Below, one piece after another: positions 7,497 through 27,585 of a stretch of DNA of 28,085 nt. How positions within the stretch are numbered: position 1 is the first letter of the stretch; each line of letters begins with the position of its first letter. The translations under genes were made by a program, and so were the position numbers. The notes beneath the pieces are model-generated. The model had not been told where the DNA came from. It saw only the letters and a list, made by a program, of their open reading frames with translations, and made no database searches. Origin of the DNA: Candidatus Bathyarchaeota archaeon (GTDB taxonomy: Archaea > Thermoproteota > Bathyarchaeia > 40CM-2-53-6); the NCBI GenBank assembly GCA_005888755.1, contig VBBQ01000038.1:1-28085 (forward strand), in the 5' to 3' direction.

Positions 7497-7712
7497 GTGA
7501 CTCCAAGAGAACGAGAACTAATGACCGGAATGGGCAACTGCTATGCTTCATGCCACGAGGACTTTGAACATACGGTAGAAATGGTCGGCGATGCGCGCGG
7601 TCTGACGGTTGACCAAGTGAAGAAGATGCTGGAGGATATTCGAGGCAAATATGGGGCTGATGCTGATTACCAGAAGCTTCGGGATCGGTTGCCTAAGGGT
7701 TTCCCGATCTAG
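7497..7712 (+). CDS. Small helical protein with a C-x3-C motif, first gene of a three-gene operon
   Basis: This 71-residue protein, unrecognised by family, has NCYASCHEDFEHT near residues 13-25, placing two Cys and two His within 11 residues, a possible metal or heme/redox site. The rest is helical and charged (LTVDQVKKMLEDIRGKYG), ending in a Pro-Gly-Phe tail. The start is GTG 7497, with a purine-rich GGGGTCAGGA about 10 bases upstream. An AT-rich element (AAATTATTAG, 7441-7450) lies at a suitable distance for a TATA box. The next gene starts 13 bases after its stop on the same strand, so the two are almost certainly co-transcribed. Confidence 0.65.
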   Translation: MTPRERELMTGMGNCYASCHEDFEHTVEMVGDARGLTVDQVKKMLEDIRGKYGADADYQKLRDRLPKGFPI

Positions 7713-7724
7713 AGGTCGATATTG

Positions 7725-8624
7725 ATGACGAAGTGTCCTAGTTGCGGGGTAGGTTTTCAGAAACACAATGACTTCGATGATCTCGCGGGTCATTTTGTTG
7801 CGGAGGCGGGACGGAGCGATGCGGGGCATGTGATGTGGCTGAACCGGAACATCACCAAGAACAAATCCGATCGAAAGAAGTTGTCGAGATTATTGAGTGA
7901 ATTCTTCAGTCTGGGAGGCGGTAGTCTGGAGGCGTGGGTTAAACGGCGTTTTATCGAGAAATTCTATGGATCAAGTCCGCACCCGTTCGTGGTGGCGTTG
8001 CAGCATCCCTCCCGCGCCGTATTGCTCGGCTATGTTGTTGAGCATCAGCATTTCCTCCGTCAGTGGGTCCGGTCCTGTGCCTTCATCATGGCCCGGTCAG
8101 GCGAGTTGGAGGTGGTCTTGTATGAGGCGGATAATATCTTCACCGAGATGGTTGGTGAACCTAGTAAGCCCAGCCATTATGAGTTGTTACTTAGGATGGG
8201 TGAGAGTCTCGGGCTGGATCGGAAGAAAGTCAAGCGGACACCTCCCTTGCCTGACACACGGGAAGCGATTCGGGTCTGGGACGGCATCTGTCAGGATGAC
8301 CACTGGACAGAAGCGATGGCAGCAATGCACGGGCTGGAACTGATAGCGAATCGGAAGTTGAAGGCTGAGGGTGCGAGCATCGGATATTTTGACCCAGTGA
8401 TATTGAAGAACAGGGAAGTATCGAAAGAAGCGAAAGCGTTCTTGCGGGAAGGGTATGAAGCGGATGTGGGGCATTCTGAAGAAGCCCTGGGTCTTGTGAG
8501 GAAATATTCTAGAAAATTGGGGAATATGGATGACGTTCAGGCTACGTTTCTTAGATCGATTGACTATTTCGACCGATACCTAATGGCCCGGTTGGAGAGG
8601 AGTAGACAGTTTGAAAGTAGCTGA
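7725..8624 (+). CDS. Zinc-finger plus heme-oxygenase-like (TenA/PqqC/CADD-type) protein
   Basis: This roughly 299-residue protein has two parts. An N-terminal CPSCG element with later His residues (H14, H23 counting from ATG 7725) forms a likely C2H2-type zinc ribbon. From about residue 45 it is an all-helical domain with features of the heme-oxygenase-like fold: a VVEHQHFLRQW helix (about 104-114), E-A-D-x-x-x-x-E (about 134-141), H151 in SHYELLLRMGESLGL, and a final long helix. These Glu/His/Asp positions fit a dinuclear iron site as in CADD and other HO-like diiron oxidases, but an inactive TenA-like role is possible. The start ATG 7725 has GAGGT eight bases upstream; TTG 7722 is an alternative. 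The zinc-finger fusion is unusual for the fold. The 3' end overlaps the next gene. Confidence 0.75.
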   Translation: MTKCPSCGVGFQKHNDFDDLAGHFVAEAGRSDAGHVMWLNRNITKNKSDRKKLSRLLSEFFSLGGGSLEAWVKRRFIEKFYGSSPHPFVVALQHPSRAVLLGYVVEHQHFLRQWVRSCAFIMARSGELEVVLYEADNIFTEMVGEPSKPSHYELLLRMGESLGLDRKKVKRTPPLPDTREAIRVWDGICQDDHWTEAMAAMHGLELIANRKLKAEGASIGYFDPVILKNREVSKEAKAFLREGYEADVGHSEEALGLVRKYSRKLGNMDDVQATFLRSIDYFDRYLMARLERSRQFESS

Positions 8625-8901
8625 GAAAGGCTGCGCGATCTGCCAGGCAACATGGGGCGACTACTGGGAAGAGATCGAAGGACAACGCATGTTCTTTTGT
8701 TGTGATATCTGCGCGATCGAATTCAAGAACATGATAAACGAGGTAAAGAAAAGAACAGGATGGAAGACGATTGACGAGATCAAGATGACGGGGAACTATC
8801 GAGGACGTGAGTGTACGGCTTTGTATGCTGGCAAGAAATATGGCTTTTCAATCCGGTTTGACTCGAAGGGCGGAATAGACTCCTTCAGCGAACGTGCCTA
8901 A
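8611..8901 (+). CDS. Ta0938-like Cys-rich zinc-binding protein
   Basis: This 96-residue protein begins GCAICQATWGDYW and continues with a FFCCDICAIEF element near residues 28-38. The two Cys clusters (C-x2-C and C-C-x2-C) would hold a metal ion. The pattern CA-x-C-x-x-T/S-W-G-x-Y-W...FFCCxxCA is the one I recall for Thermoplasma Ta0938, a small zinc-binding archaeal protein of unknown function. The C-terminal half (TALYAGKKYGFSIRFDSKGGI) is beta. The start is TTG 8611, 14 bases inside the preceding gene, so translation is probably coupled and the product likely works with the HO-like protein. Recognition is from memory of the motif, not from an alignment. Confidence 0.7.
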   Translation: MKVAEKGCAICQATWGDYWEEIEGQRMFFCCDICAIEFKNMINEVKKRTGWKTIDEIKMTGNYRGRECTALYAGKKYGFSIRFDSKGGIDSFSERA

Positions 8902-9026: not shown

Positions 9027-9342
9027 TTATGCTCTCTCGAGAATATCCTCTGCACCCTCAACTGAGGAGACTACCCCGTAATCAGCGGATTCTCGCATGA
9101 TCATCGCGTCTCTGAAATCATCAAACATTTGCTGAGGAATCTCGCTTGAATAAAGGTCGCGGAGCATGGCCTGAAGCCCGCGGTGACTTTTTTCTCTGTA
9201 ACCTCGAGCGAACAATAACGCCCTCGCAGCGTGAAAGATCCAGTAGTAGCCCTGGACCGTTGCCCACTTGTGATCCCCATCGAGGGACCGCCTAGCTGCT
9301 GCAAGATCGGATTCGGGCAACTGCGAACTCTTTCTCGATCAC
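9027..9342 (-). pseudogene. HEPN-domain protein, frameshifted near its start and truncated near its end
   Basis: The central part is a clear HEPN domain: a helix ATVQGYYWIFHAARALLFARG, then YREKSH, which gives the R-x(4-6)-H RNase motif, then a C-terminal helix ending MIMRESADYG. Two defects are visible. The N-terminus expected for the family (VIEKEFAVA..., GTG start at 9342) is in a different frame from ESDLAAARRSL; one surplus base in the GGG at 9315-9317 (plus strand) separates them. At the other end, TAA at 9027-9029 interrupts a frame that continues GFLKKAKALL, the usual last HEPN helix, to a TAG at 8952. It follows the MNT gene at 9405 in the same direction, as in MNT-HEPN toxin-antitoxin pairs. 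If both defects are real, the toxin is inactivated. Confidence 0.7.
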
Positions 9343-9404: not shown

Positions 9405-9950
9405 TTACTCTTTCTCCCAGAGGATTCTCCCTCGAGAAATGTTATCGTACAACGGCCTCTCATCCCTTCGCAATCGAATCTCACCCTGAGCGTCAACTAT
9501 TATCGTGGAGAGATGTCCGACAAGCTTTTTCCCGGCTCGCCGTACAGCATCCTTCGCCTTTGAAGGGTCACGTGTAAGAATGAACAAGTCCAAGTCGCTG
9601 TCCTTCGCATCCTTCCCCTCAGCACTACTACCGAAAAGGATGATACGTTCGGTATCGCCTTTGAGATCTTCGACGAGCTTGCGCAGGTCTATGATGTTGA
9701 ACAAGACCTTGAGCTCCCTTGAAACCGGGTTCGACAGGTTCAACCTGTAGAACTTCATCCTCCCTTTCTCCTCCATTTCCAGCAGCCCTGAGTCCTGCAG
9801 TGCACGGAGCGTCATGCTTGCAGCCCCGGAGCTCACTCCGGCCCTTTCGGCGATCTCCCTGCCGTGAAATGAGTTGTCAGGATCCTCTGCAAGGAACCGT
9901 AGAATGGTCAGCGTGACTGCTGTGAAATTGATGCTCATTTTCCTGAGCAT
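9405..9950 (-). CDS. Winged-helix/nucleotidyltransferase (MNT) antitoxin
   Basis: This 181-residue two-domain protein has a winged helix at about residues 8-72: HGREIAERAGVSSGAASMTLRALQDSGLLE is a typical helix-turn-helix, and KGRMKFYRLN is the wing. A minimal nucleotidyltransferase follows at about 88-175, with G107-S108 and S-D-x-D (D119, D121) and a third carboxylate in STIIVDAQGEI. MNT antitoxins of this type neutralise HEPN RNase partners, in known cases by AMPylating them. Here the DNA-binding domain is fused, so the protein probably also represses its own promoter. ATG 9950 lies within the operator; ATG 9938 is an alternative that fits the TATA box better. It is transcribed ahead of the damaged HEPN gene. 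Confidence 0.85.
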   Translation of the reverse strand: MLRKMSINFTAVTLTILRFLAEDPDNSFHGREIAERAGVSSGAASMTLRALQDSGLLEMEEKGRMKFYRLNLSNPVSRELKVLFNIIDLRKLVEDLKGDTERIILFGSSAEGKDAKDSDLDLFILTRDPSKAKDAVRRAGKKLVGHLSTIIVDAQGEIRLRRDERPLYDNISRGRILWEKE

Positions 9951-11373: not shown

Positions 11374-11601
11374 ATGACAGAAGTCGTCGTGACTAGAAAG
11401 GGACAGACCACAATCCCTGTGGAGATGCGACGGAAGTACAAGATTGAGGAAGGGTCCCGACTTGAGGCTATTGACACCGGTAGCGGTATTCTGCTGAAGC
11501 CGGAATTGACAACGGCTGACCTTGCGGGTTCTGGGAAGAAACACGCGAGCGTCTCGGAGATGAAACGTCTACTGGACCGGATGCGAGCAGAGGATGCCTA
11601 G
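11374..11601 (+). CDS. vapB: AbrB-type antitoxin (VapB)
   Basis: This 75-residue protein has an N-terminal SpoVT/AbrB swapped-hairpin DNA-binding domain (residues 2-45: VTRKGQTTIPVEMRRKYKIEEGSRLEAI...GILLKPE) and a C-terminal helical tail (SVSEMKRLLDRMRAEDA) that would bind and block the PIN toxin. The start is ATG 11374, directly after an 11-bp-arm inverted repeat that is probably its own operator. The stop overlaps the start of the PIN gene by eight bases, giving translational coupling. Length and order (antitoxin first) are standard for vapBC. Confidence 0.9.
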   Translation: MTEVVVTRKGQTTIPVEMRRKYKIEEGSRLEAIDTGSGILLKPELTTADLAGSGKKHASVSEMKRLLDRMRAEDA

Positions 11602-11983
11602 GGCAACCTACGATACGCGTTTCTTCGTTGAACACTATTACTCTGGCGACGCCCTGGTCACCGACTCAACCACTAACGAGATCCGAAGGGAAAAGGAAAA
11701 GGCCATCTCCTCAATAGTTCTGCACGAAGTTTACAGGCTGACTCTTCAGAAGGACGGGCGGCAGACTGCTCGCCTCCGCACCGGGCTCCTGAGCAAAGAT
11801 TTCAAGGTCATTCCGGTTGACGAGGAATTAGCTGTCACCTCTGGGGAGCTAAGACAAGAGTACCACATTTCAATGGCCGACAGTATCATCGCAGCCACAG
11901 CTTCGTCCCTACGGGCAGTCTGCGTCACCGACGACCCCCATATCCGAGGCATCCGAGAAGTCAAGACCCGATGGATAACCTGA
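11594..11983 (+). CDS. vapC: PIN-domain toxin (VapC), predicted RNase
   Basis: This 129-residue PIN protein has acidic residues in the expected order: D7 (in TYDTRFF), E45 (LHEVYR), D96 (ADSIIAA) and D113/D114 (TDDPH). These would coordinate the divalent metals used for RNA cleavage, usually of tRNA or rRNA in VapC toxins. The start is ATG 11594, overlapping the antitoxin gene. All catalytic carboxylates are present, so the toxin is predicted active and held by the adjacent VapB. The downstream 70 bases carry no recognisable gene before the damaged DUF559-like copy on the opposite strand. Confidence 0.88.
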   Translation: MPRATYDTRFFVEHYYSGDALVTDSTTNEIRREKEKAISSIVLHEVYRLTLQKDGRQTARLRTGLLSKDFKVIPVDEELAVTSGELRQEYHISMADSIIAATASSLRAVCVTDDPHIRGIREVKTRWIT

Positions 11984-16863: not shown

Positions 16864-17136
16864 ATGGACCTAGGGATGACAAAGGTATCGAGCAAAGGAC
16901 AAGTCGTCATTCCTGGACTCATAAGAGACAGGCTCGGGCTGACCGACGGCAGCCAACTACTGGTCTTCGGAGAAGGCGACACCATTATCCTGAAAAAAGT
17001 CGGTTTCGCCTCCAGCGAAAACAAGGAAGTCCTTGTCTCGGTCAGGGACAAGATTCGCCAGCTTGGCATCACCCGTGAAGACGTCTCCAGGGAAGTCAAA
17101 GCGGTAAGAGCCCGAAAAGCCAGACGGGCTCGATGA
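16864..17136 (+). CDS. AbrB-type antitoxin of the second PIN pair
   Basis: This 90-residue protein has an N-terminal SpoVT/AbrB domain (residues 5-46: KVSSKGQVVIPGLIRDRLGL, DGSQLLVF and DTIILKKV) and a C-terminal region (VRDKIRQLGITREDVSREV), ending in a very basic tail of Arg/Lys/Ala (about 79-90) that may aid DNA or toxin binding. The start is ATG 16864, 18 bases after the palindromic operator. It overlaps the PIN gene by four bases (ATGA), so the two are translationally coupled. The DNA-binding part is a clear relative of the first antitoxin, but the tails differ, so each probably recognises only its own toxin. Confidence 0.88.
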   Translation: MDLGMTKVSSKGQVVIPGLIRDRLGLTDGSQLLVFGEGDTIILKKVGFASSENKEVLVSVRDKIRQLGITREDVSREVKAVRARKARRAR

Positions 17137-17663
17137 AACCCCGCCTGGTCATGGATACAAGCGTCCTAGTATCAGGAATTTTCTTCGCAAAGGGAAACGA
17201 GGCCCAGATACTCAGCTATGCGATCGAAGGAAGAGCCGTTCTCCTGGCCAGTCTGGACACTCTTGAAGAGCTGAGGGAAGTTCTCACCCGGCCAAAATTC
17301 CAGTTGACACAGCCAGAAGCACTTACCCTCTTTCAAATGGTCTTGTCGAGATGCGAGATCGTCCTCAATCCCGAAAAAGCAGAGGCCAAGTGCAGAGACC
17401 CTGACGACCAGAAATTTCTCGACTGCGCAGTAGCCGGAAAAGCAGACCACCTCGTCACAGGAGATCCGGACCTTCTAGTAATGGAACGCGCAGGACGGAC
17501 CATGATACTCACTGGAGCCCAATTGGTCAAAGTCCTTAGAAAAACCTGGTCAACCCCGCCCAAGCTCAGCGACATCGCGGGAAGCAAGAGAATTTCGAAG
17601 GAAGATTGGCTGAGAACCCGGGGTATCATCCGGAATTCAGAGACTGAAGCGCGAGAGGGCTGA
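17133..17663 (+). CDS. PIN-domain toxin (PF13470/COG1569-type)
   Basis: This 176-residue protein has the PIN domain over residues 4-135: VMDTSVLVSGIF with D8, LEELREVLTRPKF with E46, a FLDCAVAGKADHLVTGDPDL stretch with D97 and D111/D113. This arrangement and the phrase 'S-G-I-F...E-L-x-E-V-L-x-R-P-K' define the 'putative toxin component, PIN family' group rather than classical VapC. Residues 136-176 (PPKLSDIAGSKRISKEDWLRT) form a C-terminal tail not needed for the fold. It is translated together with the preceding AbrB antitoxin. All acidic residues are intact. The target RNA is unknown. Confidence 0.86.
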   Translation: MKPRLVMDTSVLVSGIFFAKGNEAQILSYAIEGRAVLLASLDTLEELREVLTRPKFQLTQPEALTLFQMVLSRCEIVLNPEKAEAKCRDPDDQKFLDCAVAGKADHLVTGDPDLLVMERAGRTMILTGAQLVKVLRKTWSTPPKLSDIAGSKRISKEDWLRTRGIIRNSETEAREG

Positions 17664-27180: not shown

Positions 27181-27585
27181 TTATTCTGCCTTGGCAATTT
27201 CTCGAACTCTTTTCTCAATCTCGTCCCTGATCTTCCGGACCTCCTCAATCGATCTGCCCTTTGGATCGTCCAAGTTCCAGTCTACCAGCTTCTTTTGCAT
27301 CGCCGCCAGCATTGGTCTCGGACACGCTTCCTCGACTGAGCAGCCCATTGTAATTACTAATCGTGCATGGTTGATCATATCTGAAGTCAGCATCTTCGGT
27401 GATTTCCGGGAGAGGTCTATTTCCCGCTCTCGCATCGCCTCGACCACGACCGGGTTAACGAGGCTGGAAGGAACGGTCCCCGCACTCGAAGCTCTCAGCC
27501 CAAATTTCTCAGCAAACGCCTGGGCCATCTGGCTACGCCCAGCATTCTCGACGCAGACAAACAGAATCTCTCCTTGTATGGGCAT
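27181..27585 (-). CDS. arsC: Arsenate reductase, thioredoxin-coupled low-molecular-weight phosphatase type
   Basis: The product is 134 residues. The phosphate-binding loop CVENAGRS has catalytic C11 and R17 (C-x5-R). TMGCSVEEACP carries C82 and C88, the pair used for disulfide relay in thioredoxin-coupled ArsC, and WNLDDP provides the general acid Asp. It reduces arsenate to arsenite for export. No arsenite exporter or ArsR gene is in the window. The start is ATG 27585, and length is standard. The alternative, a protein-tyrosine phosphatase, is less likely because both relay cysteines are present. The gene is on the same strand as the HExxH gene, 76 bases apart. Confidence 0.9.
   Translation of the reverse strand: MPIQGEILFVCVENAGRSQMAQAFAEKFGLRASSAGTVPSSLVNPVVVEAMREREIDLSRKSPKMLTSDMINHARLVITMGCSVEEACPRPMLAAMQKKLVDWNLDDPKGRSIEEVRKIRDEIEKRVREIAKAE

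Follow-up and report, generated by a model that had tools for sequence, protein, structure and literature searches.

An archaeal operon pairing an HO-fold protein with a Ta0938-family Cys protein: a candidate partner-dependent oxidase

Three adjacent plus-strand genes at positions 7497-8901 of the window, by which is meant the whole 28,085-nucleotide contig of a Candidatus Bathyarchaeota archaeon analyzed here, form a real operon under strong purifying selection. They encode a mini-protein with a C-x3-C motif, a protein with a heme-oxygenase (HO)-type fold and a predicted metal site (referred to below as the enzyme), and a small Cys-rich protein of the Ta0938 family. On balance, we lean towards a reading in which the operon specifies an O2-dependent, metal-containing oxidase or oxygenase of HO fold that works only with Ta0938 as its partner, with the mini-protein as a lineage-specific accessory.

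HDOs, an expanding class of O2-activating enzymes, have so far been reported chiefly as single proteins of bacteria. The solved relative of the enzyme, SSO2700 (4lqx), exists as a structural-genomics entry with no function, and a literature search covering SSO2700, 4lqx, PF16293, and PF11494 found no paper and no biochemistry for any member. The Ta0938 structure, 2FQH, was found only as one set aside for its different fold, and the enzyme-Ta0938 pair was not found described as a system or operon. Ta0938 and Ta0939 were both listed in 2007 as proteins shared by Thermoplasmata and Sulfolobus, with no function given (PMC1852104).

Gene calls and operon structure

The mini-protein gene (7497..7712, 71 aa, GTG start), the enzyme gene (7725..8624, 299 aa, ATG start), and the Ta0938-family gene (8611..8901, 96 aa, TTG start) all lie on the plus strand, and the gap of 12 bases and overlap of 14 given in an earlier note on this DNA were both confirmed. 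The plus-strand spacer before the enzyme gene (7713..7724) contains, by eye, a Shine-Dalgarno-like AGAGGTC that lies partly inside the preceding stop codon, and a similar element, GGAGAGGAG, precedes TTG 8611 (also by eye). An in-frame TTG is present at 7722, but the start MTKC is common to relatives and favors ATG 7725 as the start of the enzyme. TTG is the start codon of the first gene in most relatives and of the third gene in all of them.

That these genes constitute one operon, as had been proposed, is borne out by the same gene order in 12 of 12 intact loci of the genus and family, among them that of the window itself, at protein identities of 53-95%. The first and third genes have dN/dS values of 0.04-0.10 against the window and are therefore not chance open reading frames. 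Promoter, terminator, and Rfam scans returned nothing above chance, and no neighbor outside the cassette was conserved across phyla. Elsewhere in the window, minus-strand genes at 9027-9320 and 9405-9950 encode a HEPN protein beside a winged-helix and nucleotidyltransferase protein, which looks like a HEPN/MNT toxin-antitoxin pair. Two AbrB-like and PIN-like (VapBC-type) gene pairs at 11374-11983 and 16864-17663, and a low-molecular-weight phosphatase- or arsenate-reductase-like protein at 27181-27585 on the minus strand, were recognized by eye.

Family, fold, and zinc finger of the enzyme

The enzyme matches three Pfam families well above their gathering scores: TENA_THI-4 (PF03070, E 1e-35; 123.9 bits against 22), zf-C2H2_9 (PF16293, E 3e-18; 65.9 bits against 29), and Haem_oxygenas_2 (PF14518, E 8e-14; 52 bits against 28.9). 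It shares its domain order with the solved homolog SSO2700 (4lqx; E 9e-93, 48-50% identity), onto which its AF2 model (pLDDT 95) superposes with Z 40.3 over 295 residues (Foldseek, VIA), and the model also superposes on TenA (Z 22.4), CtCADD (Z 22.0), PqqC, HrmI, and UndA. The enzyme is thus a member of the SSO2700/Ta0939 family with an HDO fold, in agreement with the HO-like fold suggested earlier for the middle protein; we do not class it as a canonical 3H/3C HDO, since its motif, E-H-E-G-D-H, departs from the E-H-E-H-D/E-H set of that class.

The N-terminal CPSCG element, previously noticed as a zinc element, turns out to be part of a CCHH finger matching zf-C2H2_9, with ligands C4, C7, H23, and H35 (7734..7829, plus strand) invariant in 49 of 49 sequences. 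Among the cysteines of the enzyme, C4 and C7 of this finger alone are invariant, and C118 occurs in 38 of 49. A Cys-type TenA thiaminase II was rejected, since the HO domain lacks a conserved Cys that could serve in catalysis.

A thiamine-salvage hydrolase of the TenA_E-like kind, with Glu instead of Cys and no metal chemistry, is rather improbable. TenA structures align with the enzyme as well as CADD does, and the enzyme gene is the sole TenA-superfamily gene found in the window's genome. The family profile nevertheless ranks CADD first (E 3e-8) and PqqC next, and TenA thiaminases that have been described are absent from its matches up to E 1; a catalytic glutamate alone would leave the conserved E/H/E/D/H set unexplained; and some Thermoplasmatota genomes have an additional, shorter TenA-like gene alongside the enzyme.

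The predicted metal site

The metal ligands of CADD, E81, H88, E142, H174, D178, and H181, provide the reference for the site. In the profile alignment to 1rcw (CADD), E141, H151, E205, D247, and H250 of the enzyme (8145..8474, plus strand) pair with E81, H88, E142, D178, and H181, so that five of the six ligands are kept; the sixth, H174, is replaced by G243, a Gly in 48 of 49 sequences. Homology, alignment, and superposition together suggest that the five residues converge on one metal site, and the claim that the middle protein carries metal-site residues is upheld to this extent. The seven ligands named in the earlier note fared less evenly. Its E142 and H152 (E141 and H151 when counted from the ATG) align with HDO ligands, and the other five do not; among these, E106/H107 and E134 are invariant, yet not ligands in CADD, and are still possible ligands here, and H109 and D136 vary across the family. 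E205, D247, and H250, aligned members of the site, were absent from that list.

With a conserved Gly at the sixth canonical position, the alignment stops short of a classic dinuclear site, and since every linked SSO2700-type copy has Gly for the Fe1 His, the site may be mononuclear, non-redox, or a Zn site. The invariant H107 (8043-8045) and H202 (8328-8330), both present in 49 of 49 sequences, are neighbors of the site, and either could replace the missing ligand. A single helical turn separates H107 from Y103, a residue aligned with an active-site Tyr of CADD (numbers deduced from the alignment).

The HDO oxidases UndA, SznF, BesC, HrmI, AetD, and FlcD share the fold of the enzyme; unlike the enzyme, they have no dedicated Cys-rich partner mentioned in the HDO literature consulted. 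The matching Fe1 ligands of FlcD are E181, H191, and H274 (PMC11363339), which makes the ligand lost in the enzyme the Fe1 His of helix 3. The E-x9-H spacing of the enzyme equals that of FlcD E181/H191, whereas its E-H-E-G-D-H motif is neither the HDO E-H-X-H-D/E-H nor the FlcD E-H-X-H-V-R pattern. A FlcD-type mononuclear HDO was rejected on the latter mismatch.

CADD is the closest characterized relative by profile, and CtCADD and NePabS resemble the enzyme in fold, in five of six ligands, and in an HPF motif. They differ in that the enzyme lacks the sacrificial Tyr and Lys, has Gly at one ligand position, and possesses an extra zinc finger and an obligate small partner. A CADD/NePabS-like p-aminobenzoate synthase serving folate or methanopterin would accord with a gene for ThyX, the flavin-dependent thymidylate synthase, that ends 1 nt upstream of the mini-protein frame in a pair of related MAGs (L065:1861-2598, L066:420-1157) and with GcvT/PdxT/GlyA-like genes (named by eye) that adjoin the enzyme in one Thermoplasmatales clade. 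In NePabS, Tyr25 directly follows HPF (PMC11965152), whereas in the enzyme family HPF is followed by V or I and never by Tyr (position 89 is V in 26, I in 19, M in two, L in one, and P in one; n=49). The donor Lys expected ten residues past the bridging Glu is not conserved either, with Lys in 11 of 49 sequences at position 214 and in none at 215. Self-sacrificing synthesis in cis of the CADD type is contradicted by the missing Tyr and Lys, and p-aminobenzoate synthesis as a whole is very improbable. A link to methanopterin is without support because no RFAP synthase exceeded the family cut-off in the window's genome or in any family member searched (G000-G020). Other families of the order do have RFAP synthase, as does Sulfolobus acidocaldarius, a distribution that suggests a changed pterin C1 carrier in the window's family.

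Ta0938 and its linkage to the enzyme

The third protein is Ta0938 proper (PF11494, E 2e-37; solved homolog 2fqh, E 7e-21), as had been surmised. It is conserved along its whole length, weakly resembles TRASH/YHS metal fingers in Pfam, and carries the motif C8-x2-C11-x18-C30-C31-x2-C34, whose five cysteines are invariant in 81 of 81 sequences. In locus L085 (6875-8377), a proline-rich linker joins Ta0938 to an alpha/beta hydrolase (Abhydrolase_3, E 8e-78), L092 has a fusion of the same kind, and L134 has a gene of the dienelactone hydrolase family 48 nt downstream of Ta0938. One Thermoproteota genus (L040, L042, L043, and L044) has Ta0938-like proteins in which an additional insert with Cys separates the knuckles, and no HO-fold gene lies close to them.

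Scanning genomes for the enzyme profile yielded 79 named loci, mostly in MAGs, from soil Bathyarchaeota/Crenarchaeota, Nitrososphaerota, many Thermoplasmata, one Heimdallarchaeota MAG, Sulfolobales, Acidilobaceae, Ferroplasma, and Thermoplasma. Ta0938 is directly downstream of the enzyme in 78 of these, across several archaeal phyla, and the hosts of the pair include many archaea of soils and acidic habitats. The mini-protein is directly upstream in 34, was not found in 44, and would lie beyond the contig edge in one (L078). The conserved adjacency that the earlier note proposed to look for in other genomes is thus confirmed, and the outcome named there as a refutation, that the three families do not occur together elsewhere, did not arise. 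Among 300 Thermoproteota genomes drawn, the finger was found in 13, with Ta0938 adjoining in 12 (the thirteenth is a fragment), and the mini-protein occurred at the enzyme/Ta0938 locus only. In 194 Thermoplasmatota genomes, the enzyme and Ta0938 were each present in 15 and common to 14, where they lie close together; the mini-protein was not found in any of the 194.

Ta0938 is missing from the vicinity of four enzyme copies (L136, L138, L139, and L140), and the metal-site ligands are broken in all four, with the zinc finger intact. L136 belongs to WH1.bin9, whose genome also holds a paired copy (L127), and has R141, Y151, and R250; the other three have D205, A/S247, T/Y/F250, and Q or E at 151. 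Among copies that do have Ta0938 next to them, on its own or as a fusion, 89 of 89 evaluable ones retain all five ligands; this count includes the L085 and L092 fusions as linked (automated scoring called them not adjacent because of the long open frame). The enzyme tree forces two independent losses among the four orphans, and the orphan evidence amounts to just these two events. A divergent homolog without the zinc finger, L142, keeps all five ligands and has a Ta0938 gene directly downstream. Since linked copies keep the ligands, orphans lose them, and L142 retains both ligands and partner, the enzyme site and Ta0938 belong to one function. The finger is separable from that function, because it is intact in orphans and missing in L142.

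Obligate 1:1 linkage and joint loss are also what would be expected if Ta0938 were the substrate, its Cys or aromatic residue being oxidatively matured by the enzyme in the manner of MNIO enzymes on Cys peptides. C30, the fifth invariant Cys beyond the four-Cys knuckle, and the hydrolase fusion in one clade are compatible with such a role. We consider it unlikely, as whole-length conservation and the weak TRASH/YHS resemblance fit a partner equally well and the protein has no leader/core layout. MNIO (DUF692) enzymes offer an analogy only, an oxidase with a small Cys protein and a partner, on an unrelated fold; an MNIO/RiPP system was rejected, no DUF692 Pfam match being present in the operon.

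The mini-protein

The mini-protein has no credible match in Pfam or PDB and belongs to no described family. Of the Cys/His cluster earlier ascribed to it, the cysteines stand (C15-x3-C19 in the window, C-x3-C in 33 of 33 mini-proteins), and the His that follows the second Cys varies. The suggestion that it is the substrate of the enzyme is disfavored, since the 44 loci with the pair and no mini-protein mean that it cannot be an obligate one. On the enzyme tree, copies with the mini-protein fall into a single clade, with Metallosphaera yellowstonensis in addition.

The AF2 model (pLDDT 95) shows four helices in an HTH-like arrangement, and its structural matches are mostly helix-turn-helix domains, MntR-like ones among them. 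Together with the TRASH-like character of Ta0938, these matches would suit a metal sensor or storage complex that is no enzyme, with the mini-protein as its regulator. This is quite improbable, given that the matches fall below significance (best Z 7.5) and that conservation is concentrated in the loop that carries the Cys residues and in the C-terminal tail, away from the would-be recognition helix. The folded, conserved structure and the invariant C-terminal P66 and F69 suggest that the mini-protein is a docking accessory. Where it is present, as in the window, Ta0938 is one residue shorter before its GR motif, and where it is absent the residue is kept (alignment of 81; edge cases by eye); this indel may reflect contact with the mini-protein, or only descent.

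Proposed mechanism and implications

The mechanism outlined here for a partner-dependent oxidase builds on the established fold family, the five of six HDO ligand positions, the near-universal adjacency of Ta0938, and joint loss, from which we infer the steps involving metal, O2, electron transfer, and substrate. Iron (or Fe/Mn) would be bound through E141, H151, E205, D247, and H250, and the place left empty by H174 would be taken by H107, H202, or substrate. The C-x2-C/C-x2-C knuckle of Ta0938 may deliver electrons (in a rubredoxin-like manner) or metal to the enzyme site, or may present the substrate. The latter is probably either a small molecule, aromatic or C1/cofactor-related, or a protein side chain. 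The zinc finger would be a structural or docking element, and the C-x3-C mini-protein would dock on the enzyme-Ta0938 pair as an accessory subunit of one lineage.

The known hosts Sulfolobales, Ferroplasma, and Thermoplasma use O2. In M. yellowstonensis, and in that one lineage only, a Rieske [2Fe-2S] ferredoxin gene lies immediately upstream of the cassette (L132:5373-5726), which hints at an electron supply; with the aerobic hosts, it fits an O2-dependent oxidase. More tentatively, catalysis may be split between the oxidase and an obligate Ta0938 that contributes electrons, metal, or a sacrificial side chain, with the C-x3-C subunit added in one lineage, which would make this the first HO-fold oxidase with a dedicated partner.

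If the preferred reading is true, the HDO class would be widened by a multi-phylum archaeal family that departs from the usual ligand set and depends on a Cys-rich partner, and two orphan structural-genomics targets, 4lqx and 2fqh, would gain a function at once, with the orphan copies and their broken sites serving as a natural control.
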